From: Lacipirellulaceae bacterium
GTDB lineage: Bacteria > Planctomycetota > Planctomycetia > Pirellulales > Lacipirellulaceae
Length of the DNA: 64,000 nucleotides
Direction of reading: 5' to 3'
Assembly (NCBI GenBank): GCA_040218535.1
Contig: JAVJRG010000012.1
Coordinates: forward strand, 1,178,001-1,242,000
The position numbers were made by a program, and so were the translations under genes. Shown here piece by piece: positions 8,982 through 27,887 of the stretch (positions within the stretch are counted from its first letter, which is position 1; every line of letters starts with the position of its first letter). The notes under the pieces were generated by a model. It ran no database searches and was not told the origin of the DNA. It saw nothing but the letters and a program-made list of their open reading frames with translations.

Positions 8982-9422
8982 ATGAATAAACGTTTCGCGG
9001 GCTTGTTGTTGATGTTAGGCGTCTTCCTAACATTGGCCTCTGGTTGCGGACCGACCCAGAAGAGAGAACCAACGACTGTCGAGCAGGCTCACCTCAAGGT
9101 GCTGGGAATCATGTACGGTAAGTTCATGAGTTCCAGCCGCGGGCAAGCTCCTAAGAATGAGAAAGAGTTGCTCGCGTACCTGAATGCGAATCGTCCGAGC
9201 TGGGAGAAAATCGTCGGTAGTGCTGAGGAACTACTCATTTCACCATTCAACAAGAAACCCTTCGTGATCTTTTACGGAGATCAGTTTTCAAAGCACAACA
9301 CAGACGGTTCCCTTTGGATGGCTCACGAACAGGCAGGAGATGGCGGACAGCAGCGAGCGATCAATATTCGAGGCGATGTTGAGCTTTTGGATGCTCAACA
9401 AGTGCAGCAAATGTTCCCGTGA
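8982..9422 (+). CDS. Small lipoprotein in operon with DUF1559
   Basis: 146 aa. The chosen ATG gives a clean lipoprotein signal: MNKRFAGLLLMLGVFLTLASGC, with lipobox LASGC; the longer frame from 8895 would bury it. The mature part is soluble and has no domain I can name; QAHLKVLGIMYGKFM followed by PKNEKELLAYL looks like a helical N-terminal half typical of small planctomycete lipoproteins found next to DUF1559 genes. It abuts the next gene (GTGA overlap at 9419-9422 if that gene uses GTG, otherwise a 14-bp gap), so the two are translated together. Function unknown. Confidence 0.75.
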   Translation: MNKRFAGLLLMLGVFLTLASGCGPTQKREPTTVEQAHLKVLGIMYGKFMSSSRGQAPKNEKELLAYLNANRPSWEKIVGSAEELLISPFNKKPFVIFYGDQFSKHNTDGSLWMAHEQAGDGGQQRAINIRGDVELLDAQQVQQMFP

Positions 9423-9436
9423 AGAGAGTGATTTCT

Positions 9437-10546
9437 ATGTCAATCAGCTACGACCCCCCAAGTTCTCGGTCGCGACAGATCTCGTTTCAAGCTAGGCACA
9501 AAAGCGGTTTTACGCTTGTCGAACTGCTTGTGGTGATTGCCATTATCGGTGTGCTCGTGGGTTTGTTGCTTCCTGCCGTACAAGCAGCCCGGGAAGCGGC
9601 TCGTCGGACGCAATGCTTGAATCAATTGAAGCAAATCGGGCTCGCCTGCCAAAACTTTGTTTCCGCGAAAGAAAGTTTTCCAACTGGTGGCAGCTTTATC
9701 TTCCCTGAAATCAGCAATTACGTAGATGGCGGCAGACCTGTTGGCCACGAAAAGCAAGGTTTGGGCTGGGGCTATCAAATACTCGATTATCTAGAGAAAG
9801 AGAATTTGGCGAATATCACGACGCAAGCCCAGCTCCAATCGACGATCGTGGCCGATTATATTTGCCCTTCACGTCGGGCACCTTTCGCCACACAAGATGT
9901 CTTAAGTCCCGCACTGCAGGTTACGCTGTCCGATTACGTCGGTGTGATTCCTTGCGGGTTTGAAAATGCCACGTCAACGGTGCGTCTCCGGCCAGACGAA
10001 AATGCAAGCCGAAGAGAGAGATTTTTTGGAGGACCCGGATCAACCTTTATCCTTCAAATTCCCCCAGACGAAGTCTACATGGGCGTGATTACGCGAACCC
10101 CAATTGGCTTTACGAATTCAGCACGCACAGGTTTTATTCGTCGTCGGGTTGCGGGCACTGAATTGCCAGTAAGAATGGAACAAATCACCGACGGAACAAG
10201 CAACACCATGCTGATCGGCGAGAAGTTTTTGCGACCTGATTTGTATGAGGGCGGTAGCGCATCAGACGACAAAGGATGGACCGATGGCTGGGACCCCGAC
10301 ACGATGCGTTCCACTTGCTTCAAACCTTTGCAGGATACCCTGGCCGGCACGTCGGGCGGTTCCTTAGAAAACCTCTACGGCTTTAACGCCGATGTTGTAA
10401 ATTTTGGATCCGCGCATCCAGGAGGACTCAACACAGTGTTTGCGGATGGGTCGGTCCATACCATTAGTTACGACATCGATGTGCAAGTATTCGACAACCT
10501 CGGTGATCGACAAGACGGCGAGGTCATCGACTTTGATCAACTCTAA
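9437..10546 (+). CDS. DUF1559 pseudopilin-like protein 2
   Basis: 369 aa from the ATG at 9437 (GTG at 9419, overlapping the previous stop, is an alternative). The prepilin motif [18 protein letters not shown] starts about residue 27, followed by [20 protein letters not shown]. Near the end [20 protein letters not shown] is the H-X9-DG signature. Between them lie the usual variable beta-rich domain and the EQITDGTSNTMLIGEK motif shared by the family. It is the second gene of an operon with the lipoprotein at 8982 and so is probably controlled from the repeat at 8825-8850. Confidence 0.9.
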   Translation: MSISYDPPSSRSRQISFQARHKSGFTLVELLVVIAIIGVLVGLLLPAVQAAREAARRTQCLNQLKQIGLACQNFVSAKESFPTGGSFIFPEISNYVDGGRPVGHEKQGLGWGYQILDYLEKENLANITTQAQLQSTIVADYICPSRRAPFATQDVLSPALQVTLSDYVGVIPCGFENATSTVRLRPDENASRRERFFGGPGSTFILQIPPDEVYMGVITRTPIGFTNSARTGFIRRRVAGTELPVRMEQITDGTSNTMLIGEKFLRPDLYEGGSASDDKGWTDGWDPDTMRSTCFKPLQDTLAGTSGGSLENLYGFNADVVNFGSAHPGGLNTVFADGSVHTISYDIDVQVFDNLGDRQDGEVIDFDQL

Positions 10547-12933: not shown

Positions 12934-14037
12934 GTGCGTACTCGACTCTTGATTGCCCGCCATAGATTCGCAAGTAGCGAACGTCGGCGGCCCGGTTTTA
13001 CGCTGGTAGAACTTCTTGTTGTCATTGCCATCATTGGCGTCTTAGTCGGGTTGCTCTTGCCCGCGGTCCAAGCAGCGCGCGAAGCCGCGAGGCGTATGTC
13101 TTGTCAAAACAATGCTCATAATTTGGCGCTTGCAGTTTTGAACTACGAAAGTGGACGAAAGAATCTGCCGCCAGCTACAAACATGGTGCCTAGAGTGACT
13201 GGTGGTCGGTTGGGAACGGAACGTGGCTACATTCCTTTCTCGGCAGCCACGCCTGGAACGAACTTTAGTTGGATTGTCAAAATCCTTCCTTATATGGAGG
13301 GTGGGGCACTCTACGATGCTTTTGATTTTACCGTTTCACCAATGGAACAAGACCTGAACGTCAATCCCCAACTTGCGCAGATTCCAGCACTGCAATGTGC
13401 CTCCGACGAAGCCTCAAGTCGATTCTATGAATCTGCCGCCCATACGAATGGTCGCAGGTTTGCCAAAGGTAACTATGCCGTCTATTGTTCTCCGGAGCAC
13501 CCCATTGCTTCTGGGATCTGGCCAGGCGCTCTTGTCAATGGAGAGCAGCCTATGTCTCGGATCACCGACGGTACTAGCAATACGTTGATGATTGCTGAAG
13601 TTCGCACCCGTGATGAACTGACCGATCATCGGGGAGTCTGGGCCCTCGACTGGCCTAATACGACTGTCCTAGGCATGGACATGCACGGCGACGTTGGGGC
13701 TCTCACGAATATCGTCGAACAAACCATCGACGTGGATTATCGTCCGGGCCCGCAATACGTTCAGTACGCGCTCACGCCAAACCTGCAGCCGGGTAACTTG
13801 GGAATCGATGAGCTTCGAGAGTGCGTGAATCCTGAGGAAGCAAGCGTCCAGAATATGCAATGTGTCACGGGACGCGGTGATTGGACCGGCGCTCCCCGAA
13901 GTTTGCACACGGGCGGGGTGAATACTGCTAACTGCGATGGCAGCGTGCGATTCCTCACCGATGATATCGACCCGCTGGTGATGGGAGTTCTGATTTGCAT
14001 CAACGATGGCGTTCCTATCGATCCGGAACAATTATGA
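12934..14037 (+). CDS. DUF1559 pseudopilin-like protein 3
   Basis: 367 aa, GTG start at 12934 after CAAGGAGAA. The prepilin motif [18 protein letters not shown] begins near residue 20, followed by [20 protein letters not shown]. The family motif SRITDGTSNTLMIAEV is in the middle and LHTGGVNTANCDGSVRFLTDD near the end corresponds to H-X9-DG. A small membrane protein gene follows after 95 bp on the same strand. The upstream region carries phased repeat 6. Confidence 0.9.
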   Translation: MRTRLLIARHRFASSERRRPGFTLVELLVVIAIIGVLVGLLLPAVQAAREAARRMSCQNNAHNLALAVLNYESGRKNLPPATNMVPRVTGGRLGTERGYIPFSAATPGTNFSWIVKILPYMEGGALYDAFDFTVSPMEQDLNVNPQLAQIPALQCASDEASSRFYESAAHTNGRRFAKGNYAVYCSPEHPIASGIWPGALVNGEQPMSRITDGTSNTLMIAEVRTRDELTDHRGVWALDWPNTTVLGMDMHGDVGALTNIVEQTIDVDYRPGPQYVQYALTPNLQPGNLGIDELRECVNPEEASVQNMQCVTGRGDWTGAPRSLHTGGVNTANCDGSVRFLTDDIDPLVMGVLICINDGVPIDPEQL

Positions 14038-14559: not shown

Positions 14560-17500
14560 CTACTTGGAATAGCCTCTAAGGCTCGTGCGTCCCTCCGAGA
14601 TTTGATCGAAGACAGCATCTAGAGCTTCTTCCGCATCGTCTGAGTACGTAGTACTTTGAACCGCTCCGGTTCCGTCGGCACGATCTCGTGATGTGCTTTG
14701 CGATTCACCTACAGGGCTGAAACTCTGCTGTGGGAATGCGTTCTCCGAGGTGCTACTGGCTGCATTAGAGATCCCGTTGTATTCTTCGCTCCGTGCTTGA
14801 GCAGAGTGGTAATCCAGTTCAACTGCTTGGGCCAACGCTGTCAGTTCACCCTGTGAAGCCCCATTGGAGACGTTGGAGACGAATGCCGCGACGTTGCCGA
14901 CGGTGCCATATTGGTTATCCCAGATGACGAGGTCAGCCCCGTCAACAGCTTCATCGGCGTTCGCGTCGCCTTGCGAGAGCGTGGCACCAGAGCTTATGCC
15001 GGACCCTCGTTGCCACGCGAGGAAGTCAGCGCCATCAACGATTCCGCTGCCGTTGAAGTCGGCGTCTTCTGATGTTGCGGGGGCCATCAGTTGAACACGC
15101 ACGGCATCTGCAATGACGACTGAGCCGCCCGTGCTCGCCGCAGCATCAAGAGTCACTGAGTGATTGCCGGCGGTGAAATCATAAGTCCCAAGCGAAACCC
15201 AAACGAGATCGTTGTTCCGCTGATTGATGCTTACGGTTTGCGAACCATTACCTGTGTCGATCTGGTAAACCGTGTCTAAGGCACGGTTGGTTCCCGCACG
15301 ATATTGAACAAAGACTTCAGCTTCGCCAGCGAAGGGTAGATCGAACTCCCACTCGGCAGTCGCTGAATCGCCAACCACGGCAAAGCGGTAGGTGCTGCCG
15401 TTGAAGCCCGTGCTGCCAGAGGTGGTCCAACTACCCGTCTCAGTATAAACCGTGGGGCCATCATCGTTATCGAGGATCAGCTCGACATCACTCAGCACCA
15501 CGTCGTATTCGAAGAACTCAAGCACACGTGACATAACTGAGTTCCGTGTGCTTTCGTCCGTGATGGTTTCGAAGGGGAAACCGAAGTTGACGACCTTGGT
15601 GCCCGTTCCGCTGTTATATTGAATTGCCGCAGTTCCTCCGGTGCCACCGACGTAACTCAGCGCACTGGTTGAACCTGCTGCCGGGTTGATAACGTCAGGG
15701 AACTCAACGTTGTAGAACTGCGATCCGTCATCAAAGTTGAAGGAGAGTCCCTCAAAGATTGAACCGCTCGTTCCTTGCACACTATAAGTCCCCGCATCGT
15801 CGGAGACGTAATCCGCTCGCAACTGGTTGTTATAGAAAAAAGGACCGTTGCCGAGGGCATCAAGGTCCCAGCCCACTTCGGCCCCGGAAAGGAAGAGCTG
15901 TCCTCCGCCGGATAAAAAGTTGGTTACGAGCGTCTGCTCAGTCGTATTGAAGGTATCGTCGGCCGAAGACTCTTCGCCAAGGATCCAAATGACGCTCTCG
16001 TAGTCGGTGAGATCGATATCGCCGGAGATGACTTTCTCGTTGGATGCCGTATCGACGGCCAATCCTTGGGTCGTGGTTTCGATGGCCGAAGCGACTTGCA
16101 CCGCATAATCAAAGGAATTGCTCTGCCGTGGTCGGACCCGGTCTGCACCCGACTGAACCGGGTTCTGCGACTTATCGAGTCGATCGAACCCGTTGACGAT
16201 CAGGATGTTCTTACTTGTTCCGTTCGGGAGGCTAGCGACGACTTCCGACGCGCGACCTTCGCCACCGGAGTTCACAGCGACGACTTTGAAGTAGTAGGCA
16301 CCTTCGTTGGGATCGAGGCCATTGAACGTATGGCTTGTCGTGCCCGCACCAGCGACAAACGTTCCTCCATCGAAGCCGTAGCCGTTGGTCGAACCATAAA
16401 TACGGTAGCCGGTTGGCGCGTCCCCCTCGGCGTCGCTAACGGTTGGAGCCGTCCAAGAGACGGTCACGCTACCTGAGCCCACCGACTCCGCAGAGACTTG
16501 CTCCACTTGTCCGGGGACCATGACGATTGGTGTAGAGCCGGAATCGACGTTGTTGAAGTACTTCACCGTGCCTTGGTAAGTTGCCCGCGCAATGGCATCT
16601 CGGACGTTTGCATCCCGTAGAAGATCGGTATCCAGGCTGTTATCGTGGAAGCCCGTCTCGATAATCGTCGCGTCGAATTCATTCTGGATGACTGAGTTGT
16701 TGATTTCGCCAAAATCAATGTCTGCCCGATCGAGTGTGACGATGGAGCCCCGATCGAACCAGTTGTGCTCGAACTCACCATTGAGATCCACGAGGTCGTC
16801 GTTCACCTCACGCGCGAGAGTGTTGGCGAGCAGGAACTGGTTTGGAGTGGCTCCTGGCCCATTGTAGAGCCCGAGAACGCCACGGCTTGAGCCTCCCGCG
16901 GCATTCGAATGGAAGCTCACGAATACGCGATCAGAAAGAGAGCCATCGGTCTCGCGGTTCATGTACTCAGAGTAACGCGGAGCGAGCGAAACAGTCGCGC
17001 TGCGATCACTGCTGGAGGTGCGATACTCACTTGTAGCGATCCCCTGAGAGCGCTCGACGTGCCACTCAACCCAATAGAGCCCCGCTTCGTCCTCGCGATC
17101 GCGACCCGAGATCGTGCCGCTTTGCTGTACGTCGCCGACCCCGTTACCGAAGCGGATCATGTCGGCAATCACCACTCGGCCCGCCTCACTGGAGCGGTTG
17201 CTGATGTCGACCGATCCTGTCGTCCCTTCCTCAAAATGATAGGTGCCAAGATAAACGAGCCCGTTGCCCACGCGGCGATGGTTGACCGTGACTTCAGTAG
17301 TTCCCCCCGAGTGGTGGACGCGATAGAGCTGGTCGGAGGCACGGTCTGAGCCGTATCGTGTCCAAGCATAGACGGGATAAAAACCAGCCTCGGTAATGTT
17401 CGGACGGTAATTAGCCGTGGCCGTTTCTGTGGCCGAGGTGCTGGCGAAGCGATAAGGCAACTCTCCTGCTTCACCGAAGTAAATGGGCGAGCTACTGTCG

Positions 17501-17913
17501 CTCCAGGCTCCTGTAAATGTCACTTCCGCATCGACGTTGTCGAGGACGACTTCATTCGGCTGGTGGCCCACGGGTCGTAGGGGCACAACGGTTGCGCCCG
17601 AGTTGAACAAGTAGTCCGTGTAGAAGGTCATCTGATCTTGGTTGCCAAGATCTTCGATCATGTTGAGCAACAGAGGGCGTTGGAATGCCCAATTGCCTGC
17701 ACTGGGCGAGTCACCTGTGATGCCGTGGCCACCATGGGTGTAGACGATCTTCCCCGAGAGCGCACCATCAGGCTGCGTCCCCACGTCAACGAGGCCCGCC
17801 GCCGCCAGCGCGATGCGAGGCTCCAGGGGTTCATAGTTAAGCGACTTGGCTGGCGCGTTCTTCCCTGCTGGCCGACTGCTCATCGGCCAGAGGTTCTTCC
17901 AGAAGTTCTTCAT
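14560..17913 (-). CDS. Large secreted amidase_3 with golvesin-like, FN3 and dockerin-like domains
   Basis: 1117 aa. The N-terminus has the LEPR motif (YEPLEPRIALAAAG) found on exported planctomycete proteins. Amidase_3 elements are split: YTHGGHG (His near 60/63), then a golvesin C-terminal-like beta domain (about 130-258), then WVEWHVERSQGI, FVSFHSNA (His 335) and the catalytic-type glutamate in IIETGFHDN (Glu 419). A fibronectin type III domain follows (about 467-562), then a region beginning NILIVNGFDRLDKS that looks like a glutamine amidotransferase-like fold, a second golvesin-like domain (about 815-935), and a dockerin-like pair (DFNGSGIVDGADFLAW and GDANADEAVDGADLVIW). It should cleave MurNAc-L-Ala bonds outside the cell. 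Phased GCGCA repeat 7 lies 127 bp upstream. The domain borders are estimates. Confidence 0.8.
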   Translation of the reverse strand: MKNFWKNLWPMSSRPAGKNAPAKSLNYEPLEPRIALAAAGLVDVGTQPDGALSGKIVYTHGGHGITGDSPSAGNWAFQRPLLLNMIEDLGNQDQMTFYTDYLFNSGATVVPLRPVGHQPNEVVLDNVDAEVTFTGAWSDSSSPIYFGEAGELPYRFASTSATETATANYRPNITEAGFYPVYAWTRYGSDRASDQLYRVHHSGGTTEVTVNHRRVGNGLVYLGTYHFEEGTTGSVDISNRSSEAGRVVIADMIRFGNGVGDVQQSGTISGRDREDEAGLYWVEWHVERSQGIATSEYRTSSSDRSATVSLAPRYSEYMNRETDGSLSDRVFVSFHSNAAGGSSRGVLGLYNGPGATPNQFLLANTLAREVNDDLVDLNGEFEHNWFDRGSIVTLDRADIDFGEINNSVIQNEFDATIIETGFHDNSLDTDLLRDANVRDAIARATYQGTVKYFNNVDSGSTPIVMVPGQVEQVSAESVGSGSVTVSWTAPTVSDAEGDAPTGYRIYGSTNGYGFDGGTFVAGAGTTSHTFNGLDPNEGAYYFKVVAVNSGGEGRASEVVASLPNGTSKNILIVNGFDRLDKSQNPVQSGADRVRPRQSNSFDYAVQVASAIETTTQGLAVDTASNEKVISGDIDLTDYESVIWILGEESSADDTFNTTEQTLVTNFLSGGGQLFLSGAEVGWDLDALGNGPFFYNNQLRADYVSDDAGTYSVQGTSGSIFEGLSFNFDDGSQFYNVEFPDVINPAAGSTSALSYVGGTGGTAAIQYNSGTGTKVVNFGFPFETITDESTRNSVMSRVLEFFEYDVVLSDVELILDNDDGPTVYTETGSWTTSGSTGFNGSTYRFAVVGDSATAEWEFDLPFAGEAEVFVQYRAGTNRALDTVYQIDTGNGSQTVSINQRNNDLVWVSLGTYDFTAGNHSVTLDAAASTGGSVVIADAVRVQLMAPATSEDADFNGSGIVDGADFLAWQRGSGISSGATLSQGDANADEAVDGADLVIWDNQYGTVGNVAAFVSNVSNGASQGELTALAQAVELDYHSAQARSEEYNGISNAASSTSENAFPQQSFSPVGESQSTSRDRADGTGAVQSTTYSDDAEEALDAVFDQISEGRTSLRGYSK

Positions 17914-18039
17914 CGGTTCCGTTTCGAGAATGAATGTTCCGCAGGCAGGAGTGGCCTTTCCGCGTTCTGAGGCGAAGCAGAGCCACTAATTTCCATTGTA
18001 CACGCGACGACAAAGACAAGAAGTTTTCGTCGCTCGAAT

Positions 18040-18065
18040 GCGCGAGGTGGAGAACGGATTGCGCG
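18040..18065 (-). promoter_or_regulatory. Phased GCGCA repeat, copy 7
   Basis: Minus-strand GCGCA-N16-GCGCA (plus-strand GCGCG at 18040 and 18061), 21 bp apart, 127 bp upstream of the amidase_3 start at 17913 and in the same orientation. Confidence 0.65.
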
Positions 18066-18147
18066 AAATCGATGCCGTTGATTACCTTTTTGGAGCGTGT
18101 TTCGACGCTAGAACGTCAGAGCGGTGGTTGGCCTCGTCGCTACCACC

Positions 18148-18987
18148 TCACCAAGAGAGGCACTCTTCAGCCATCACTCCCGTACTGACTTTGGTAACGG
18201 GGCCGGTCATCGTCGCGGCAAAGTCGGTGTCAAATGCGATACTTAAGAGCCCGCCGGGCATCTCGACGGTGATCTCCGCATCGCATTCACCGAGACGATG
18301 GGCAACCGCAGCGGCTGCCGTGCTGCTACTTCCCGAGGCGAGGGTATAGCCGGCTCCACGTTCCCAGATCTCAATTTGAATCCGATTGCGATCAATCACC
18401 TTCATGAATTGCACGTTCGTGCGAGCGGGAAACCGCGGATCCGTCTCAATCTTTGGTCCCAGTCGATGAGCCAACTCCTGGGTAGGTGTATCAACGAGGA
18501 CCACGCAGTGAGGGTTGCCAACGGTCGCGGCGCAGAATGTCAGCGTTTCCTCGTTGATGTCCATTTCTTCATTGATGACTTCTCGCGATTCTCCCTTAAC
18601 GGGGATTGCTTCACTCTGGAAACTGACTCTGCCCATCTCAACGCGGACGCTTTGCCCTGAATCCTGAACCTCGCAGCGAACGGCACCCCCCAGGGTTTCG
18701 ACAGTAAATGGTGCTTGTTGCACCAGACCTTCGTCCCAGAGAAACCGCGCAAAAATTCGCAGCCCGTTGCCGCTTTTCTCAGCTTCACTCCCATCCGGGT
18801 TGAGGATCCTCAGTCCAAAGTCACACGCGGTGCTTTCCAGCGGTCCCAAGAGGATGCCATCCGAGCCCAGTCCATAATTGCGATGGCAGATTCTGCGGGT
18901 TGTTTCATCCGTCAGTTCGGTAGCCAAGTCCTGAGGGCGAATTACCAGATAGTCGTTGCCGAGGGCATGGTACTTTGCATAATTCAT
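18148..18987 (-). CDS. DapF-family protein with both catalytic Cys replaced by Ser
   Basis: 279 aa from the ATG at 18987; a longer frame to 19185 adds an unrelated basic tail and would overlap nhaC on the other strand. The diaminopimelate epimerase fold is plain: HALGNDYLVI, CHRNYGLGSDGIL, RILNPDGSEAE, VGNPHCVV, RTNVQFM and WERGAGYTLA are all in register. In true DapF the two catalytic cysteines sit in CGNG and ACGSG/ACGTG. Here these are S72-G-N-G and A-S218-G-S, so both acid-base residues are serine. Either it is an isomerase with altered chemistry or substrate, or it is not a racemase. It is divergent from nhaC (74 bp) and lies in a cell-wall gene neighbourhood. Confidence 0.85.
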   Translation of the reverse strand: MNYAKYHALGNDYLVIRPQDLATELTDETTRRICHRNYGLGSDGILLGPLESTACDFGLRILNPDGSEAEKSGNGLRIFARFLWDEGLVQQAPFTVETLGGAVRCEVQDSGQSVRVEMGRVSFQSEAIPVKGESREVINEEMDINEETLTFCAATVGNPHCVVLVDTPTQELAHRLGPKIETDPRFPARTNVQFMKVIDRNRIQIEIWERGAGYTLASGSSSTAAAAVAHRLGECDAEITVEMPGGLLSIAFDTDFAATMTGPVTKVSTGVMAEECLSW

Positions 18988-19061
18988 GTCTGCCTCAAGA
19001 GCACAAGTCATTGGAATCTTCTGAGTCAGCCCCAGCATATCACCGCCAAGGCAAAGAATCG

Positions 19062-20804
19062 ATGTCGTCTGATTGGCCTGCAATGGAAGCTCCGAAAACT
19101 CAGCCTTTACGGTCACCGACCTTTTGGATCTTCGTCGTTGCGTGTGCGCTGGCTTTCGGCGTTGGAAAGAACCGATTGCCGACACTGAGCTTCAATAAGA
19201 CGGAGCTTGAGGTCCAGCGGGATGACTTTCTCAATGAGCTTGTCGAAGTCGACGGTGACCGACGCTCCGTCCACGCGGCTATCCCTTTGCAGCATGTTTC
19301 GTTGGAGCCGGGTAAGTACTTGGCCTATGAAGGCAACTCCTCTGCTAAAGGATCGGTCAAACGCTACTATCTCGTAACCGTTGAGCCGCACTGGGGAATC
19401 TGGTCGTTCCTACCAGCGGTGATCACGATTGGACTCTGCTGGATCACCAAAGAGCCGATTACTTCTCTATTGGCCGGCATCGTCGTGGGCGCACTGCTTA
19501 TGGGGCAGTACGACCTTCTGGGAGGCGTCTTAATCCCTGCTATCAGCACGAAGAAAGCGGCCACGATTCTGATCTTATACCTATGGCTACTTGGTGGGCT
19601 GATGGGTATCTGGACTCGCACGGGAGCCTCGCAAGCGTTTGCCGACTACATGGCTAAGAACTATGTGCGCGGACCACGCTCCGCGAAGTTCATCACTTGG
19701 CTACTAGGCATCGCCTTCTTCCAGGGTGGCACGATTAGCTCCGTACTCGTGGGCACGACGGTTCGACCACTAGCAGATAAGGAACGCGTCTCTCACGAAG
19801 AGCTCTCGTTGATCGTTGACGCGACTTCCTCACCGATCGCGATCCTGCTGGCCTTTAACGCTTGGCCTTTTTACATCCAAGCTTTCCTAGGCGTCGCGGG
19901 TGTCAGCTACCTTGCGACCGAGGCGGATCGCCTACGCTTTTTCTTTGCGTCGGTACCGCTGAGCTTTTATGCGCTGTTCTCTGTTCTAGCGACGTTGTTG
20001 ATCGCCCTCGACAGGCACCCTGCTCTGCCCAAGAAGCTGAAACAAGCTCGCTTACGTGCGCTCGAGACCGGCGAGCTGAATGCGCCAGGTTCGAAGCCAC
20101 TAGCGATGGAATCAGAGAGCCAGCGGAAGCCAGAAATCGATCACAAGAGCCGCCCTGTCGACTTCTTCCTGCCGCTAATCACCCTGCTAGGGATTGCCGT
20201 CGGCACTTATTGGTGGCTTGACTCCCCGAACGTACTGTGGGCATTTGGAGCAGCGTTGCTACTAGCCGGTTGCTTGGCGGCTTTCAGGGGGATGAATCTT
20301 CGGGAGATTATCGGAGGGGTGATTGAAGGACAACGAAGCGTCATCTTGGGAAGCGTGATCCTCTTACTCGCGATTGCGATCGGAAAGATTTCCCAGGACG
20401 TCGGTGCGGGTCGCTACCTCGTTTCACTACTAGGAGATTTCTCCTGGTACTGGGCTTTGCCGGCGACCGTGTTTGTAATTGCGGTGCTGATTGCGTTCTC
20501 CACAGGTACCTGCTGGGGAACCTACGCGGTCACTTTCCCCTTAGTGATGCCATTGGCTCATGCCGTGGCGACCAATCAAGAGCTAGGTCATCCCCAGTTA
20601 TTCATGTCGCTCTGCTTCGCGGCTTGCTTGAACGGGGGCGTCTTCGGGGACCAGTGTTCGCCGATCTCGGACACCACTATCTTGAGCGCGATCTCCACCG
20701 AAGCCGATCTCATGGACCACGTGACGACGCAAATCCCAATCGCGCTGCAAGCGGCTGCCCTGGCGATTCTGCTCTGGACTGGAATCGCGTTCTACTGTGC
20801 GTAG
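19062..20804 (+). CDS. NhaC-family Na+/H+ antiporter-like protein 1
   Basis: 580 aa from the ATG at 19062 (AAGG about 10 bases upstream); ATG 19083 is an alternative, and earlier starts run into dapF. After a first membrane helix (FWIFVVACALAFGVG) there is a hydrophilic extracytoplasmic segment of about 70 residues, then about ten membrane helices with NhaC-family motifs: VDATSSPIAILLAFNAWPF, STGTCWGTYAVTFPL and GVFGDQCSPISDTTILS. The family exchanges sodium for protons or, in some members, couples organic-acid transport to ions. The substrate is not known. It sits between dapF-like and LD-carboxypeptidase genes and has a paralogue at 24046. Confidence 0.85.
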   Translation: MSSDWPAMEAPKTQPLRSPTFWIFVVACALAFGVGKNRLPTLSFNKTELEVQRDDFLNELVEVDGDRRSVHAAIPLQHVSLEPGKYLAYEGNSSAKGSVKRYYLVTVEPHWGIWSFLPAVITIGLCWITKEPITSLLAGIVVGALLMGQYDLLGGVLIPAISTKKAATILILYLWLLGGLMGIWTRTGASQAFADYMAKNYVRGPRSAKFITWLLGIAFFQGGTISSVLVGTTVRPLADKERVSHEELSLIVDATSSPIAILLAFNAWPFYIQAFLGVAGVSYLATEADRLRFFFASVPLSFYALFSVLATLLIALDRHPALPKKLKQARLRALETGELNAPGSKPLAMESESQRKPEIDHKSRPVDFFLPLITLLGIAVGTYWWLDSPNVLWAFGAALLLAGCLAAFRGMNLREIIGGVIEGQRSVILGSVILLLAIAIGKISQDVGAGRYLVSLLGDFSWYWALPATVFVIAVLIAFSTGTCWGTYAVTFPLVMPLAHAVATNQELGHPQLFMSLCFAACLNGGVFGDQCSPISDTTILSAISTEADLMDHVTTQIPIALQAAALAILLWTGIAFYCA

Positions 20805-20815
20805 CCGATTGCCAG

Positions 20816-21889
20816 CTACGGCTTAGCCGTTGGCGGTAGGATTCTCAGCGTTGCCGCATCAGCGTCGACTTCAACCATCCCACCCATCGGAACGGCAGCA
20901 TTCGCCGGATGGTGGCCAATTGGGTAGTTGATCAGAACGGGAATGTCCAACGGTTCGAAGTATTGCCTGAGAACACCGGTGACCGAGAATCTTTCATCCT
21001 CGGTCATCTGATCTTTCTCGCGATCGTAATTCTCAGTGAACTGACCGAGCACCGCACCTTTCAGGGTATCAAGCTTGCCGGCCAGTTTCAGTTGGCACAG
21101 CATCCGATCCACTCGATAGGGAGCCTCGCGTGTGTCCTCGATCATTAGAATGGCGCCTGCAGTGTCAATCTCGTAAGGGGTTCCCATGAGGGACACAACC
21201 AACGAAAGGTTGCCTCCGGTGAGTCGGCCCCTCGCTTTTCCTTTGCCGATTCCTTCAGGTTGTGGGACCTCTTGCGAAGGCTTGATGACGTATCCCTGGT
21301 CATCGCCTTCTGACTGTTGGAGTGCTTTGTAAAAGTATTCTTCGGCGAATGCTGGCAAGTTCGGTTCATCGTCGTCTCCCCAGACGCCATTGGGCGAGTG
21401 AAACGTGACGAGGCCCGCTTTCTTATTGATGGCCAAATGCAAGGCGGTAATGTCGCTGTAGCCGGTGAGCACCTTGGGATTCTCGCGGATCACGTCGTAA
21501 TCGAGTGAATCGAGGATGCGCATCACGCCGTAGCCGCCGCGTCCGGAGAAGATGGCGTCGACTTCCTTGTCTTGGAAAGCACGCATGAGCTCTTCCGCAC
21601 GTCGCTCGTCAGTACCGGCCAGGAATCCGTATTCGCTAAACATCGCTTCGTCGAGCTTTACCTTGTAGCCACGTTTCTCGAGTCGCCCCTTCGTTACCAT
21701 GATCGAGTCGCGACTCAGCGGACTCGCTGAGGCAACGAACATGATCGTATCGCCCGGGCGAATCTTCCTAGGCCAGATCATCGCCGGTTGCGAGGTTGAA
21801 TTCGCCTCCTTCGCAATCGTTTGGGAATCGATTCCGATTAGTAAGAAACAGACCAAGACCGTGCAGCAGACTTTATCGTAGAGAGACAT
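20816..21889 (-). CDS. LD-carboxypeptidase (peptidase S66), secreted
   Basis: 357 aa with a signal peptide (VCCTVLVCFLLIGIDSQTIA). The S66 catalytic residues are visible: Ser145 in LTGYSDITALH, Glu251 in LMIEDTREAPYRVDRM, and His326 in YPIGHHPANAAVPMG. GRGGYGVMRILD is the usual motif before the nucleophile. These enzymes remove the terminal D-alanine from murein tetrapeptides (LdcA) or cleave related isopeptides (MccF). LdcA of E. coli is cytoplasmic, while this one is predicted exported. It is convergent with nhaC, the two stops being 11 bp apart, and divergent from ggt. Confidence 0.9.
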   Translation of the reverse strand: MSLYDKVCCTVLVCFLLIGIDSQTIAKEANSTSQPAMIWPRKIRPGDTIMFVASASPLSRDSIMVTKGRLEKRGYKVKLDEAMFSEYGFLAGTDERRAEELMRAFQDKEVDAIFSGRGGYGVMRILDSLDYDVIRENPKVLTGYSDITALHLAINKKAGLVTFHSPNGVWGDDDEPNLPAFAEEYFYKALQQSEGDDQGYVIKPSQEVPQPEGIGKGKARGRLTGGNLSLVVSLMGTPYEIDTAGAILMIEDTREAPYRVDRMLCQLKLAGKLDTLKGAVLGQFTENYDREKDQMTEDERFSVTGVLRQYFEPLDIPVLINYPIGHHPANAAVPMGGMVEVDADAATLRILPPTAKP

Positions 21890-22016
21890 TCTTCACCCTT
21901 ATGCCATTGATTGCTTGAAATTTGGCGTCACCGATAGTCTATTGCAAACGCACCGAAGTTGTCGCGTGAGTAAGCCACGAATTTGTTTCACTGTTTTACG
22001 CAAGTGAGTCTACGAG

Positions 22017-23708
22017 ATGCGCAGCACCCTTTCGTCAATAACACTCTGCCTAGCGATTGTCGTTCTTGTCTCCCAACCAAGTTTAGCCGAGAGCGAACGT
22101 TGCGTCGTCGCGTCCGTTCAGCCGCTGGCTACCCAGGCTGGAGTCGCGGCGTTTGAGAGAGGCGGCAATGCCGTTGACGCGGCAATCGCCACGGCACTGA
22201 CGCTGGGCGTTGTGGATACGCCCAACTCAGGTCTAGGAGGGGGCTGCTTCATTCTCATCCGCAAACCTGATGGCACGCTCCTGGCAATCGACGGGCGTGA
22301 AATGGCCCCTGCCGCTGCGACCAGAGACATGTACCTCGTCGATGGTAAAGTCGATACGCAACTTAGCGTGCGAGGGCCGCTCGCCGTCGGTGTCCCAGGC
22401 GCACTGGCCGCCTATGAACGAGCGATCAATCAATGCGGCACACAGTCCTTGGCGAGCTTGCTGCTGCCGGCAGCTAATATTGCTGAGGAAGGCTTTCCCA
22501 TTGATCGCGTCTACGCCGGCAAGCTTGCGAGTAAGGCTTCCGAACTGGCGATGTTTTCAGGCAGTGCCGAAGTGTTGCTGAAGCCCGATGGCAGTCCTTT
22601 TCGGAGCGGGGAGACGCTCCGGCAAACTGACCTCGCCAACTCCTATCGACAGATTGCCGAACACGGCCCGGCTTGGTTCTACGAGGGCGAATTCGCCAAG
22701 GCTGTCGGAGATTGGATGGCCGAGAACGACGGGATTTTGACAGCCGCCGATTTCGCTGGCTACAAAACGGTCGAGCGCGAACCGATCGTCACCACTTACC
22801 GCGATTGGCAGATCGTCGGCTTCCCGCCACCCAGCTCCGGCGGAGTTCACGTCGCTCAGATTCTAAACATACTTGAGCACTACGACTTGAAGGCGGAGTT
22901 TGAGAAGGATCCGGTACGAGGAACCCATCTAGTTGTTGAGGCCATGAAACTGGCATTCGCCGATCGTGCATACTGGCTCGGTGATCCCGACTACGCCAAA
23001 GTTCCACGAGGTCTGGTTGAGAAGTCGTATGCGAAAGAACTGGCTGCGAAGATCGACCCAACGAAGGCTAGCGAAGTTCCTCAGCATGGCAATCCGCCCG
23101 ACGCAAAGGCCTCCGTCTTCGAGCGACACACCACGCACATTGCTGCTGCGGATAGTGAAGGCTACTGGGTAGCAATCACCGCGACCATCAATACCTCGTT
23201 CGGATCGAAGGTGATCGTACCCGGTACGGGGATCGTACTGAACAATGAGATGGACGACTTCTCCAGCGCACCGGGCGTTGCCAACGCATTTGGTTTGATC
23301 GGCGCCGAGAACAACGCGGTTGCTGCTGGGAAGCGTCCCCTATCGAGCATGAGTCCGACCATCGTTCTGGACAAACAAGGGGAACCCGTGATGACACTTG
23401 GTGCCGCGGGCGGTCCGAAGATCATCACCCAAGTGCTCAACACAACGATCCGCACACTGGATCTAGAGCAAGACCTGTCCGACGCAGTTGCTGCGCCGAG
23501 GTTCCATCACCAATGGCGACCAGACCTAGTGCAGATCGAATCGACCTTGGAGCCAGAGATCGTTGCCGGATTGAAAGCAATGGGACATGAGATGAAAGTT
23601 CTCACCGCCAATGGCATTACACAAGCGATTGGTCTCGACGACGAGGGCAACTTCATCGGCGTGCACGATCCGCGCATCCCGGGGAAAGTCGGGTATGGGT
23701 CGCGATGA
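22017..23708 (+). CDS. ggt: Gamma-glutamyltransferase
   Basis: 563 aa. Signal peptide MRSTLSSITLCLAIVVLVSQPSLA, so periplasmic. GGT motifs occur in order: GGNAVDAAIAT, GLGGGCFILIR, DGREMAP, the autoprocessing/nucleophile site HTTHIAAAD (Thr372), LNNEMDDFS, and KRPLSSMSPTI with the gamma-glutamyl-binding SS. The precursor self-cleaves before Thr372 into large and small subunits. It hydrolyses or transfers gamma-glutamyl groups, for example from glutathione or from gamma-D-Glu-containing peptides. Its place between LD-carboxypeptidase and the D-Glu/dipeptide epimerase operon fits a role in using wall peptides, which is inference. Confidence 0.95.
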   Translation: MRSTLSSITLCLAIVVLVSQPSLAESERCVVASVQPLATQAGVAAFERGGNAVDAAIATALTLGVVDTPNSGLGGGCFILIRKPDGTLLAIDGREMAPAAATRDMYLVDGKVDTQLSVRGPLAVGVPGALAAYERAINQCGTQSLASLLLPAANIAEEGFPIDRVYAGKLASKASELAMFSGSAEVLLKPDGSPFRSGETLRQTDLANSYRQIAEHGPAWFYEGEFAKAVGDWMAENDGILTAADFAGYKTVEREPIVTTYRDWQIVGFPPPSSGGVHVAQILNILEHYDLKAEFEKDPVRGTHLVVEAMKLAFADRAYWLGDPDYAKVPRGLVEKSYAKELAAKIDPTKASEVPQHGNPPDAKASVFERHTTHIAAADSEGYWVAITATINTSFGSKVIVPGTGIVLNNEMDDFSSAPGVANAFGLIGAENNAVAAGKRPLSSMSPTIVLDKQGEPVMTLGAAGGPKIITQVLNTTIRTLDLEQDLSDAVAAPRFHHQWRPDLVQIESTLEPEIVAGLKAMGHEMKVLTANGITQAIGLDDEGNFIGVHDPRIPGKVGYGSR

Positions 23709-24045
23709 GTCGTCAGTAATCCTCTGAGTCTAGCCTGGAAAGACTACTCGAACGAGTAGTTAGAAGCTTTAGCTAGTAGCAAGGCTGAAACCATTACTAG
23801 CCCCGGGATTTATCCCGGGGGCTATGACAGTATTGGGGTAGTCGACCGCGTCAGACGATTTTTTTGTCAGCGGAGCATTGCCGCGGTCGAAATAAGCCGC
23901 CGTTGATTTCGGTCTCGTTTTAGTTCGGCCGCTTGGATGGCCGTGCTGCTCGACCGATGGTATGGCAGACTCAGATACCCCGGGATAAATCCCGGGGCTA
24001 ACAAAATGTGAATACCAGAACTTAGTAGGCACTGGAAAAGATGAA
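23709..24045. other. Intergenic region holding a REP-like doublet
   Basis: 337 bp between the convergent ggt and second nhaC genes. It contains an ACTACTCG-AA-CGAGTAGT hairpin (23743-23760) 35 bp after the ggt stop and the repeat-bounded element at 23798-24000. No gene is present. Confidence 0.55.
23798..24000. repeat. 203-bp element with perfect 21-bp terminal inverted repeats
   Basis: The ends (23798-23818 and 23980-24000) are exact reverse complements, and each is also almost a palindrome: CCCCGGGATTTATCCCGGGG type. The interior contains another inverted pair, CGACCGCG (23843-23850) and CGCGGTCG (23882-23889). It has no open frame and no evident target duplication. It looks like a REP/BIME-like doublet or a MITE rather than a terminator. 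Confidence 0.6.
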
Positions 24046-25761
24046 CTACTGTGCTGCTTCGGCGGCGACATTCTCCTCCGCCCGTTTCCCAACGAGAAAG
24101 ACAAACGCCACCAACGCAGCCGCCTGCACCGGCAGCAGCATCCAGACGGAGACGCCCCATCCTAGCGGCAATGTGCCCAATAAAACGCTGACCGTACCGA
24201 CGACGATTGCGTAAGGCATTTGAGTGACGACGTGAGCCACGTGATCGCAGGCGCAAGCTTGCGAGGACAGAATCGTCGTATCGGAGATGGGTGAACAGTG
24301 GTCACCAAAAATGGCGCCCGCGAGGACACCCCCCACCGAGGCAAGCAAGATTGGGTTTGTTGCCGCTGCTTCACCTCCACCAGCAATCAGGAGCGCGTGC
24401 GTGAGCGATATGACCATCGGCAGCAATAGCCCCATCGTGCCGTAGCTAGTTCCCGTAGCGAAGGATAACGCCGCTGCCAGTAGAAAGACGATCGTTGGTA
24501 GTAACTTGAGTGTTGTTGAAGTGGAGTCGGCCGTTCCTTCTTCAACTTGTTCCGTAGTACCGAGAATCTTCTTCGCGAGAAAATCACCCGTGTAAAGACG
24601 GTGGTCTTTGAATTCGTAGGGAGTCTCTGAGAGTTGCCCCTCGACGGATTTGCTTCCCGTAAGTTGGGAGAGTGCCGACGCACACCACAGGATGGCAATC
24701 GCGGGAAGGACAACCATGGCACCTTTGCCCGCGGCTTGAACCAATTGTCTCCAGTTCATCAAGCGTTGGCCGAGAGCCAGAACACCTGCACACACAAGGC
24801 CGACCAGCGCCCCGTATTGCAAACTCATGCTCGAGCTGGCCGCGCCGAGGATATCTCTTAGCTTGGCTGTTTCGAGGCCATTCTCTTCCGCCAAATTATG
24901 CCAGCCTGTGGAATACATCAGCCAGACGACAACACTCAGTGTAACGACGATTGGCAGCACCGCGTTGTACCAACGAGCGGGGACGTTTGCGGGCAGGTCG
25001 TCGAGAGCGATCTCTTCGCTGGCTCCATCCGGATTGTCGGGCTCTTCAACGGAGTCTTGATTTAGACGACGTCGCTCCGCACGCAGCATAGGACCAAAAT
25101 CTCGCCCGGTGAGCGCGATCAGAGGCACAAGCACCAAGGACATCAGCACGTAGAAGCGATAGGGAATACTTCCTAGAAACAGGTCGATCGCGGTCCAGGT
25201 ATTCTCGCCGCTGATGGTTTCGATCCCCTCGTTGACGTACTGGATTTCAATGGCTACCCAAGTCGAAAGCAGGGAGAGTCCAGCTACCGGAGCGGCGGTT
25301 GAATCCACCAGGTAAGCAAGTTTCTCACGCGAAATTTTCAGGCGATCGCAAAGCGGACGGAGAGTTCCTCCCAGGAGGATCGTATTCGCGTAGTCGTCAA
25401 AGAAGATCAGCATCCCTAACAACCAAGTTGTCAGTTGCCCTCCTCGACGCGTTTTCGCCAGCGGCGAGATCAGGTGGATAAAACCTTGCATGCCGCCACT
25501 ACGGCAAATCACCCCGATCATCGCTCCCATGAGTAAGGTAAAGCTGAAAACCCGCAGCCGACCTTCGCTGACAAAGGTTGGCCACATGTGGACTTCGCAC
25601 GTATCTTGAACTGCGGCAACCAAGTTGCCGCCAGTGGTCAGCAGAGCGCCGCAGAAAACCCCGGCAAACAAGGAAATCGCCGCCTTCCGTGTCACGATTG
25701 CCAGAATGATGGCAACGATCGGAGGAAGGAGGCTTAGCCAACCGTAGGGATGCGAATCCAT
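24046..25761 (-). CDS. NhaC-family Na+/H+ antiporter-like protein 2
   Basis: 571 aa, about 11-12 membrane helices. NhaC-type motifs: FFDDYANTILLGGTLRPLCD, VDSTAAPVAGLSLLSTWVA, FATGTSYGTMGLLLPMV and IFGDHCSPISDTTILSSQA. A hydrophilic stretch around residues 215-255 forms a large loop. It lacks the extracytoplasmic insert of the first paralogue and is a separate branch of the family. It is the last gene of a minus-strand run: DUF1611, epimerase, double serine hydrolase, nhaC, with gaps of 39, 16 and 61 bp. Cotransport of a wall-derived amino acid is possible but only inferred. Confidence 0.85.
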   Translation of the reverse strand: MDSHPYGWLSLLPPIVAIILAIVTRKAAISLFAGVFCGALLTTGGNLVAAVQDTCEVHMWPTFVSEGRLRVFSFTLLMGAMIGVICRSGGMQGFIHLISPLAKTRRGGQLTTWLLGMLIFFDDYANTILLGGTLRPLCDRLKISREKLAYLVDSTAAPVAGLSLLSTWVAIEIQYVNEGIETISGENTWTAIDLFLGSIPYRFYVLMSLVLVPLIALTGRDFGPMLRAERRRLNQDSVEEPDNPDGASEEIALDDLPANVPARWYNAVLPIVVTLSVVVWLMYSTGWHNLAEENGLETAKLRDILGAASSSMSLQYGALVGLVCAGVLALGQRLMNWRQLVQAAGKGAMVVLPAIAILWCASALSQLTGSKSVEGQLSETPYEFKDHRLYTGDFLAKKILGTTEQVEEGTADSTSTTLKLLPTIVFLLAAALSFATGTSYGTMGLLLPMVISLTHALLIAGGGEAAATNPILLASVGGVLAGAIFGDHCSPISDTTILSSQACACDHVAHVVTQMPYAIVVGTVSVLLGTLPLGWGVSVWMLLPVQAAALVAFVFLVGKRAEENVAAEAAQ

Positions 25762-25822: not shown

Positions 25823-27871
25823 TCAAGGTTGCTTACTGGCAAGTTGTTTCCGTGCCCAGCGATAAAGGTTCTTCGAGTCCGTGTAACGGGCGTCCGTCGA
25901 AGTGGAACCGAGAACGACGACCATCAGTGACTTCCCGTCTTGGGTTTGTTCGGAAACCAGGCAGGAGCCAGCTGCGGAGGTCGTCCCCGTCTTTACGCCG
26001 CCAAAGCCCTCGATCTTGAGCAAGCGGTTCGTGTTGTTCCACTTCAAGTTTCGCTTATAGCCGCCCGGTCCAACGACCGTGCAGCCATGTTGCACGGTTC
26101 CCACATACTTTTTAAACAAAGGTTGCCGCATGGCACTGCTCGCGAGTTTTAGCAGGTCGACCGTCGAGGTATGATGCCCCGCGGCGGTTAAGCCATGCGT
26201 GTTTTTGAACTGCGAGTTGGTCATGCCCAGTTCTTTAGCGGTCTGATTCATGGCGGCAATGAATTGATCGAGCGGATCGTTGCTCGTTTCGCCGTCCGGG
26301 CTGACCCGGCTGCCAAAGTGTTCGGCCAGCGCTACCGAAGCATCATTTCCTGAAGGAAGTAGGAGTCCGTAAAGGAGTTCGTCAACGCTCAACTTTTCTC
26401 CTTGGCGAACTCTTGCGGAAGAACCGCTCGTTTCGTCAGCGCGCTTCGAGAAAGTGACTATCTCATTCAAGGCATCAGGGTTTTTGTCGATGAAGCTAGT
26501 GACAACGTAACCGGTCATGATCTTCGTTGTGCTGGCCATGTCCAACGGCTTCTCGGCTTGATGTCCCCAAAGTAACTCGCCCGTCTTTCCATCGCCGATG
26601 GCCCAGGCCTTGGCGGTTACGAAAGGAGGGCCTTTCAGGTCGTCGGCGGGCTGCTTTTCAATCTTTTGGGCGTTGATGACTTCCGGAGCACCTGGGTCAT
26701 TCTCTTCGACCAGCGTTCCGAGTGCCTTCCAAGTTTCAGGACCGACGACTCCCTTTTCGCTCAGGTTGTTGGCCTCCTGGAATCGAATGACCGCCTGTTG
26801 GGTTGCGGGCCCGAAGTCGCCGTCGACGCCGATTGACTGATTAGCAGGGAGTTTCGAGTTGAGGGTCCGCTGCAAAGACTCGACTAACAGACCGTTGGCC
26901 CCAATCCGAAGAATCGGATCGCCGGAGTCTTTGACTTCTTTTCCTTGGTTGAAGAGGTCGTAAACCTCCTTCGCAATATAAGAGCAGAGCATATCGCCAG
27001 CGTTATCGGGTCCCCAACTCTTGTCCTCGTTCTTGTTAGTAAGCACGCAAAGCAGCATCGGGCCATGTGGGCCGACGATGATCCCCGCGTCGGTGCGTGA
27101 GCTGTTGACCGACCCGGTCTTGTGCATGACTTTTGCTTCCGGGGGAAGCAACTTGGGGAATTTCTCCGGATAGACGTCGTTGGACATTTGCTCAATCATC
27201 TGCTCGCTGGCCTTCTCGCTGACGAGCTTCTTCTCGTGGAGCGTTTCCAGCAGCTTGATCATTTCTGCTGCCGTTGTGCTCCCCAAGCCAAACTTGTTGC
27301 TACGCTCAGGGAAAATCGAGCTGTCACGCCGGTAGACCTTGGAATGGAGTTTTGTGTTTGGGCAGTCCAGCGACTCCATCAGTTTCGCGGTCGCTGGCAG
27401 GCCGACTTGATCGATTACCAAGTTGGTCGCGGTGTTGTCGGAATGCGACATCATCAAATGAATCACATTATTCAGGGAAAGCTCGGTGCCCCCCTCAAAG
27501 TGCTCAGTGAGGATGCCCGAACCGGGGACCTTATCTTCTTCCTTCATGGTGACACGTTTTTCGAGATCGAGTTCGCCCTCTTCGATCGCCTTGTAGGCAG
27601 CGATCATCAACGGGAATTTAATGAGGCTAGCCGTGGGCATTGGCTTCTCAGCCTGATGCTGAAAAGTGGCCCCTGACTTTAAGTCCTTGATCATGACGCC
27701 GACGTCTCCGTCATGGGCATCGATCAGCGGCTGAACTTTTTCCGCCAAAGCTTTGGAAAGTACGATGGAGTCTTCGTGATGCTTCGCATGGCACACGCTT
27801 GCAGCGACATACAGTAAAACGGCAAAGGAAACGCTGGCGACGAAACGGTTCGCAGATAGAGATATTTTCAT
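25823..27871 (-). CDS. Fusion of class A beta-lactamase-like domain, peptidoglycan-binding domain and D,D-carboxypeptidase
   Basis: 682 aa from the ATG at 27871, which gives a signal peptide (SVSFAVLLYVAASVCHA); the longer frame to 27994 is not signal-like and overlaps the epimerase. Residues about 35-295 are a class A-like serine hydrolase with S82LIK, S144DN and K251TGS; I do not see the deacylating ExxLN motif, so it may be a peptidase rather than a lactamase. Residues about 318-385 are a PG_binding_1 domain (VDGDFGPATQQAVIRFQ). Residues about 415-682 are an S11 D-Ala-D-Ala carboxypeptidase with S447TTK, S507GN and K627TGT. It is a periplasmic wall enzyme with two active sites, cotranscribed with the epimerase. 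Confidence 0.85.
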   Translation of the reverse strand: MKISLSANRFVASVSFAVLLYVAASVCHAKHHEDSIVLSKALAEKVQPLIDAHDGDVGVMIKDLKSGATFQHQAEKPMPTASLIKFPLMIAAYKAIEEGELDLEKRVTMKEEDKVPGSGILTEHFEGGTELSLNNVIHLMMSHSDNTATNLVIDQVGLPATAKLMESLDCPNTKLHSKVYRRDSSIFPERSNKFGLGSTTAAEMIKLLETLHEKKLVSEKASEQMIEQMSNDVYPEKFPKLLPPEAKVMHKTGSVNSSRTDAGIIVGPHGPMLLCVLTNKNEDKSWGPDNAGDMLCSYIAKEVYDLFNQGKEVKDSGDPILRIGANGLLVESLQRTLNSKLPANQSIGVDGDFGPATQQAVIRFQEANNLSEKGVVGPETWKALGTLVEENDPGAPEVINAQKIEKQPADDLKGPPFVTAKAWAIGDGKTGELLWGHQAEKPLDMASTTKIMTGYVVTSFIDKNPDALNEIVTFSKRADETSGSSARVRQGEKLSVDELLYGLLLPSGNDASVALAEHFGSRVSPDGETSNDPLDQFIAAMNQTAKELGMTNSQFKNTHGLTAAGHHTSTVDLLKLASSAMRQPLFKKYVGTVQHGCTVVGPGGYKRNLKWNNTNRLLKIEGFGGVKTGTTSAAGSCLVSEQTQDGKSLMVVVLGSTSTDARYTDSKNLYRWARKQLASKQP

Positions 27872-27887
27872 CGTAGTTCTCGAAATT

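Follow-up and report, generated by a model that had tools for sequence, protein, structure and literature searches.

Does a diaminopimelate (DAP) epimerase need its two cysteines? DapF is the textbook case of alpha-proton removal by a thiolate without a cofactor, and the gene described here raises the question on a natural sequence. The window (the whole stretch of DNA that was analysed, 64,000 nucleotides of contig JAVJRG010000012.1 in the Lacipirellulaceae bacterium assembly GCA_040218535.1) carries on its minus strand a frame running from 18987 to 18151, with its stop codon at 18148-18150, which encodes a 279-residue DapF homologue starting with MNYAKYHALGNDY. As predicted from the sequence, both catalytic cysteine positions are occupied by serine, Ser72 and Ser218, in the contexts SEAEKS72GNGLRIF and WERGAGYTLAS218GSSS; the corresponding cysteines of Haemophilus influenzae DapF are Cys73 and Cys217. 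We propose that this protein and its Ser/Ser relatives are probably cysteine-free DAP epimerases that convert LL-DAP to meso-DAP.

By curated scores the protein falls within DapF. The TIGR00652 model matches residues 1-273 with 243.6 bits (cut-off 114.65) and PF01678 gives 197 bits; the thresholds of the proline racemase superfamily PF05544 (17.7 bits versus a gathering threshold of 27) and of the bifunctional DapF/glutamate racemase model NF038284 (47.4 versus 350 bits) are missed. The AlphaFold model, made with a 46-sequence alignment, has a mean pLDDT (predicted local distance difference test) of 94.9 and is predicted to have the DAP epimerase fold: the first 26 fold matches in the PDB are DAP epimerases or O-ureidoserine racemase, with template-modelling (TM) scores (query) of 0.72-0.93 and 26-38% identity. 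Hydroxyproline epimerases in the same search show 14-16% identity to the window protein. In the model, Ser72 and Ser218 directly precede two helices, in the places of both cysteines; the protein lacks the two cysteines expected of a DapF but keeps the helix-start positions. Because it is DapF by curated score, yet has catalytic residues that depart from the family definition, it is best assigned to a separate 'Ser/Ser DapF' sister branch, whose mode of action is probably that of DapF, rather than to the canonical two-cysteine epimerases.

The serine pair is not an error of sequencing or assembly, an explanation that the original prediction had already set aside and that can be ruled out because another, independent genome from the genus has a 75% identical homologue with the same two serines and the same codons (AGC and TCG); the residues recur at 123 further loci (80 + 43, described below). 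Between the two genomes dN (nonsynonymous divergence) is 0.18 and dS (synonymous divergence) is not estimable. In a set of 59 near relatives, from which the best 30 matches were read, only the window genome and this sister genome gave strong matches; the other 28 loci read are all Cys/Cys, with 30-36% identity, and seven genomes gave no DapF match to the Ser/Ser protein as query. A draw of 392 genomes from the phylum (best 30 matches read; a partial 50% match in genome G125 was left out) contributed three more Ser/Ser proteins with 64, 49 and 47% identity, and the other 25 new loci read are Cys/Cys (one of them, L063, read from a later alignment).

With five Ser/Ser proteins as queries we then scanned 84,980 species, each represented by one genome; this returned at least 581 relatives, and all of the best 80, which were kept, are Ser/Ser. 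By NCBI phylum label, these best 80 of at least 581 comprise Verrucomicrobiota (40), Thermodesulfobacteriota (10), Myxococcota (7), Cyanobacteriota (5), Planctomycetota (4), Chloroflexota (3), Pseudomonadota (2), five unassigned genomes and one each of Acidobacteriota, Armatimonadota, Sumerlaeota and Actinomycetota, making 11 phyla, of which the single labels may be wrong because most of the genomes are metagenome-assembled; nor is the set a random sample of DapF, as the queries were themselves Ser/Ser. A less biased sample is a draw of 288 genomes from the verrucomicrobial phylum of one Opitutaceae-labelled Ser/Ser genome. Here, 57 genomes score 222 bits or more and the following one 173 bits, a clean gap, and all 43 loci read from these 57 (two of them in genomes already in the earlier sets) are Ser/Ser, down to 46% identity; seven further DapF copies of lower identity have MCG and ACG where covered. 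No viral relative was confirmed, and there are two plasmid matches with 34-38% identity. The Ser/Ser form of DapF is real and widespread, and the near-relative, phylum and species-wide scans rule out a local oddity.

The MAFFT alignment of 150 unique proteins contains 85 Ser/Ser and 65 Cys/Cys proteins and none that is mixed. When 11 columns around both catalytic residues were removed before tree building, all 47 Ser/Ser proteins in a tree of 84 chosen proteins still lay on one side of one branch, with a support of 99 in the Shimodaira-Hasegawa-like approximate likelihood-ratio test (SH-aLRT) and one change of state between the two forms; the Ser/Ser proteins do form the clade that the original prediction had suggested looking for. 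The serine codons at the two sites are AGY/TCN at 97 loci, TCN/TCN at 38 and AGY/AGY at 15, some of which share a genome; the codon box has switched between AGY and TCN at both sites, yet serine has been retained. Two 'C/T' readings in this count probably reflect gap placement; the suspected loci are L063 and L229, which were misaligned in earlier alignments but are C/C in those made with MAFFT.

Several residues have changed along with the serine pair: M71K and E214Y (counts in Table 1), C78I, G221S and E/H/N193Q in all 85 Ser/Ser proteins and A222S in 78. Anabaena DapF holds DAP through Asn13, Asn66, Asn164, Asn197, Glu215 and Arg216, with further contacts from the GN and GT segments that follow the two cysteines (PMC12039745). 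The equivalent residues N11, N63, N158, N191, E209 and R210 are identical in all 85 proteins, as are G73, N74 and G219, with S220 in 84; one locus outside the 85, L225, has Val at position 73.

We checked 54 genomes for copy number, all reached via Ser/Ser loci (50 of the best-80 scan loci and four others), and in 38 of them the Ser/Ser protein is the only DapF-family match; exactly one match was likewise found in 46 of the 57 Ser/Ser-type genomes of the verrucomicrobial draw. The second, normal dapF for which a search had been proposed was not found in the window genome (a 5.36 Mb assembly, 95.8% complete), where a PF01678 search matched only two halves of the Ser/Ser gene. The pathway around the epimerase step was searched in a panel of 40 genomes, 39 with a sole copy and one (G115) with both forms. 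LysA exceeds its cut-off in 31 of these (any match in 39), DapB in 29 (34) and MurE in 24 (40), and LysA reaches at least 395 bits in 26 sole-copy Ser/Ser genomes. The alternative route through meso-DAP dehydrogenase found no support in the panel, with no match in the 40 genomes and a control that matched in two of 14 named genomes. Among the 24 MurE loci over the cut-off, the DNPR motif is present in 20, absent from the frame read in L258 and L260 and unreadable in L257 and L259. Genes in the order dapF-dapA-dapB lie on the same strand in L077 (where the gene names were checked), L097 and L106, and dapB-dapA-dapF in L093, together four of the 85 loci searched. No other conserved operon partner stood out across phyla, although the greedy frame caller makes this a weak search; the other neighbour clusters inspected are antisense frames over dapF, sensor-type proteins or Opitutia-type synteny. 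Opitutaceae strains contain DAP by gas chromatography/mass spectrometry and one of them, Lacunisphaera strain IG16b, has a listed DapF, WP_069963382.1, the isomers apparently not being resolved (PMC5303756). The Ser/Ser form, which arose or was lost in one change of state and occurs under 11 phylum labels, is the only DapF in many genomes and hence, on balance, likely to be their only source of meso-DAP. The two-cysteine rule of DapF may therefore not be universal, since a member of this branch seems to be the only copy in many bacteria.

In such an enzyme LL-DAP would be bound as in DapF; one serine, polarized by the helix dipole and the changed shell, would take the alpha proton and the other would give a proton from the opposite face. 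General acid and base would then be two hydroxyls facing each other from the N-termini of the helices, those of Ser72 and Ser218, in place of the thiol/thiolate pair. We infer that the co-changed Lys71, Tyr214, Ser221, Ser222, Ile78 and Gln193 make the hydroxyls competent, with Lys71 or Tyr214 perhaps lowering the serine pKa. A precedent within the same fold is a natural Ser/Cys 4-hydroxyproline epimerase (PMC4113996). In the window genome the product would feed lysine synthesis, and would supply wall DAP only if the unusual MurE (see below) still uses DAP.

A number of observations weigh against epimerase activity of the Ser/Ser proteins. Single Cys-to-Ser mutants of PddB have less than 0.1% activity, with the same stated for Mt-DapF (PMC8225329), and the C67S and C209S mutants of HisR are greatly reduced (PMC11602996). 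We found no active double-serine enzyme in the open-licence literature consulted, nor assay data for any Ser/Ser member; natural Ser/Ser DapF proteins are described in no title or abstract opening among the papers listed there. Further DapF matches are present in 16 of the 54 Ser/Ser genomes, and the one extra copy read in each of 15 of them has cysteine throughout where covered. Four of the five cyanobacterium-labelled genomes searched have higher-scoring Cys/Cys copies in addition to the Ser/Ser one. G447 carries both forms, and there the place between lysA and dapA-dapB is taken by the Cys copy, which is spread over two frames. Near 81 of the 85 loci, many with short flanks, we saw neither dapA nor dapB, and the same holds for all 43 verrucomicrobial loci (flanks of about 1.5-3 kb). 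A Cys/Cys dapF split over two frames, in a genome that has a Ser/Ser copy too, was seen both in G447 (L234, G447:C314:3843-4645) and in G494 (L233, G494:C44:7607-8471), and is either a pseudogene in the course of replacement or a draft-assembly error.

The need for meso-DAP is also less certain in the genus of the window than across the clade, because its LysA is divergent and its MurE unusual. The LysA of the window genome (G000) is barely over the cut-off (303.9 versus 297.9) and carries ENGR/CENND, not EPGR/CESGD; the other members of this divergent type that were read also lack EPGR and CESGD-like motifs. The type is common to several genera of the family and to the five DapF-less genomes of the family (G004, G023, G028, G034 and G035, one neighbouring genus, one of them a single contig). 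In these five the protein is 65-69% identical to that of the window genome, and G023 and G034 also hold a canonical LysA; four sole-copy Ser/Ser genomes with deltaproteobacterial labels (G452, G481, G482 and G486) have it with 51-53% identity. LysA does not prove a DapF step, because six relatives without a DapF match, these five and G048 from the same order as the window, have LysA-family genes (over the cut-off in G023, G028, G034 and G048); the DapF-less call rests on the Ser/Ser protein as query, not on the family model, and G008 (66% complete), the seventh near relative with no DapF match, was left out of the LysA check. The MurE homologue of the window genome scores 221 of the 257.3 bits needed and lacks DNPR and GKGHE, as does that of the sister genome, so that the third-position amino acid of the genus is uncertain. 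The window genome contains DapB and a gene resembling LL-DAP aminotransferase. For DapL of the TIGR03542 type only sub-threshold aminotransferases were found there, and the aminotransferase at C12:941109 is probably LL-DAP aminotransferase because it matches NF004937 with 496 bits over 307 residues (full-length cut-off 585).

The original prediction was that the serines point to a different reaction, by a hydroxyl-based racemase or in a non-racemase role, and it named the absence of any other DapF together with a meso-DAP wall as what would speak against this. In the window genome only the first half was found, because its MurE lacks the DAP motif. If the serine pair marks a change of activity, the protein would be a DapF-fold isomerase of another amino acid or would carry out another alpha-carbon reaction, such as elimination or the racemization of lanthionine, hydroxy-DAP, glutamate or a dipeptide; this would suit the higher-scoring Cys/Cys copies of the cyanobacterium-labelled genomes and the Cys copy in the dap-operon place of G447. 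In the proline racemase superfamily altered catalytic residues go together with other activities, as in its Cys/Thr and Ser/Thr dehydratases (PMC4113996, PMC4364671); HisR, PddB and O-ureidoserine racemase are homologues of DapF that act on different substrates, and chlamydial DapF racemizes glutamate too (PMC5885031). We nevertheless consider a changed reaction unlikely for a protein whose DAP contacts are invariant in 85 sequences, which stands alone as a PF01678 gene in the window genome and as a DapF match in 38 of the 54 genomes, and which adjoins dapA-dapB at four loci, with LysA and meso-DAP dehydrogenase distributed in the panel as described. What we retain of the prediction is the hydroxyl-based racemase; the different reaction and the non-racemase role are not supported.

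The remaining alternatives have less to recommend them. Within the genus of the window, the protein could handle DAP from foreign peptidoglycan and not serve biosynthesis: both genomes have the syntenic amidase-like protein, LD-carboxypeptidase, gamma-glutamyltransferase and two NhaC-type transporters, and in both MurE is without DNPR. The amidase-like and NhaC clusters, however, are found at no other of the 85 loci compared (three Planctomycetota-type flanks span only 0.6-1.5 kb), and the window genome has DapB and the LL-DAP aminotransferase-like gene, which makes such salvage very unlikely. A pseudoenzyme that has lost catalysis and serves in binding or regulation is suggested by the loss of both catalytic cysteines, but is very unlikely when the serine pair and the DAP contacts have been kept across 11 labelled phyla (among the best 80 of at least 581 relatives) and the protein is so often the only DapF match (38 of 54 genomes). 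A cysteine-free DAP epimerase is accordingly the function that we prefer.

The features discussed are collected in Table 1. Synteny with the sister genome extends over the window from about 14800 to 25500; a homologue of the 1117-residue downstream protein is at the same place there, and the NhaC-type neighbour to which the original prediction drew attention is real and conserved. Wall-peptide enzymes are numerous around the Ser/Ser gene (amidase-like, LD-carboxypeptidase S66, gamma-glutamyltransferase, and beta-lactamase2 plus D-Ala-D-Ala carboxypeptidase). The Y4yA-like decarboxylase, in contrast, could not be upheld as a neighbour: it is 14 kb away, is a sub-threshold LysA match and has no conserved linkage, the only LysA-type matches of the sister genome being separated from dapF by about 1.5 and 2.5 Mb. 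The window also has three prepilin-type proteins (6041-7171, 9419-10546 and 12934-14037), of the ordinary planctomycete type (DUF1559).

Table 1. Positions of the Ser/Ser gene, its diagnostic codons and other features (window coordinates unless a locus or genome is given)
Feature	Position	Strand	Remarks
Ser/Ser DapF homologue, 279 residues plus stop	18148..18987	-	TIGR00652, PF01678, AlphaFold, PDB fold matches
Ser72 codon AGC, replaces N-terminal catalytic Cys	18772..18774	-	KSGNG versus MCGNG; precedes helix 73-85
Ser218 codon TCG, replaces C-terminal catalytic Cys	18334..18336	-	LASGSSS versus LACGTGA; precedes helix 219-231
Lys71 codon	18775..18777	-	Lys in 85/85 Ser/Ser; Met in 63/65 Cys/Cys proteins
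Tyr214 codon	18346..18348	-	Tyr in 83/85 Ser/Ser; Glu in 52/65 and Tyr in 0/65 Cys/Cys
1117-residue protein, Golvesin_C + fn3	14560..17913	-	Downstream neighbour; weak Amidase_3 (29.9 bits, cut-off 27)
Na+/H+ antiporter (NhaC-like) family	19065..20804	+	Divergent upstream neighbour; open frame from 18975; kept in sister genome
LD-carboxypeptidase family S66	20816..21889	-	
Gamma-glutamyltransferase	22017..23708	+	
Beta-lactamase2 plus D-Ala-D-Ala carboxypeptidase	25823-27994		
Wall-peptide enzyme	4190-5233		Named by eye only
Decarboxylase (Y4yA-like in the original prediction)	2627-4114		Sub-threshold LysA match, 121.6 bits
Divergent LysA-like decarboxylase	L298 5462-6742 (G000:C10)		Also L178, L179, L286-L297
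Below-cut-off MurE homologues of the genus	L064 = G000:C5:1045493-1046764; L262 = G001:C1:2314348-2315625		

A conserved and often sole-copy branch that has no catalytic cysteine makes the need for a thiol testable on natural sequences, and the residues that changed together with the serines offer specific starting points for asking how a hydroxyl might take over that task. The Cys/Cys pair of DapF can form an inactivating disulfide (PMC5296763), a closure that a Ser/Ser enzyme cannot make. If the proposal is true, resistance is expected to thiol reagents, to alkylation by aziridine-DAP at cysteine and to a disulfide redox switch. Inhibitors of DapF that target cysteine would presumably have no effect on Ser/Ser proteins. 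Annotation calls for caution, as TIGR00652 gives the name DapF to proteins that lack the residues by which the family is defined.

Compared with the DapF enzymes of H. influenzae, Escherichia coli, Anabaena and Arabidopsis, the Ser/Ser proteins share the predicted fold, the length, the helix-capping catalytic positions, the DAP contacts, the curated family scores and, at four loci, the dapA-dapB linkage. They differ in having serine for both cysteines, Lys for Met71, Tyr for Glu214, GSSS for GTGA and Ile for Cys78, and they form a separate clade. The Ser/Cys 4-hydroxyproline 2-epimerase (B9JQV3, Avi_0518) has one natural serine in a DapF-type fold and keeps its activity (PMC4113996), but there only one cysteine is replaced and the substrate is another. 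The Chlamydia bifunctional DapF/glutamate racemase (NF038284), a type proposed for the Planctomycetes-Verrucomicrobia-Chlamydiae superphylum (PMC5885031), is likewise a DapF homologue, but has both cysteines. The C73S and C217S mutants of DapF (PDB entries 2q9h and 2q9j) have one serine at the same place and superpose on the model with TM scores of 0.86 and 0.85, respectively; these are laboratory single mutants, unlike the natural double serine found here.
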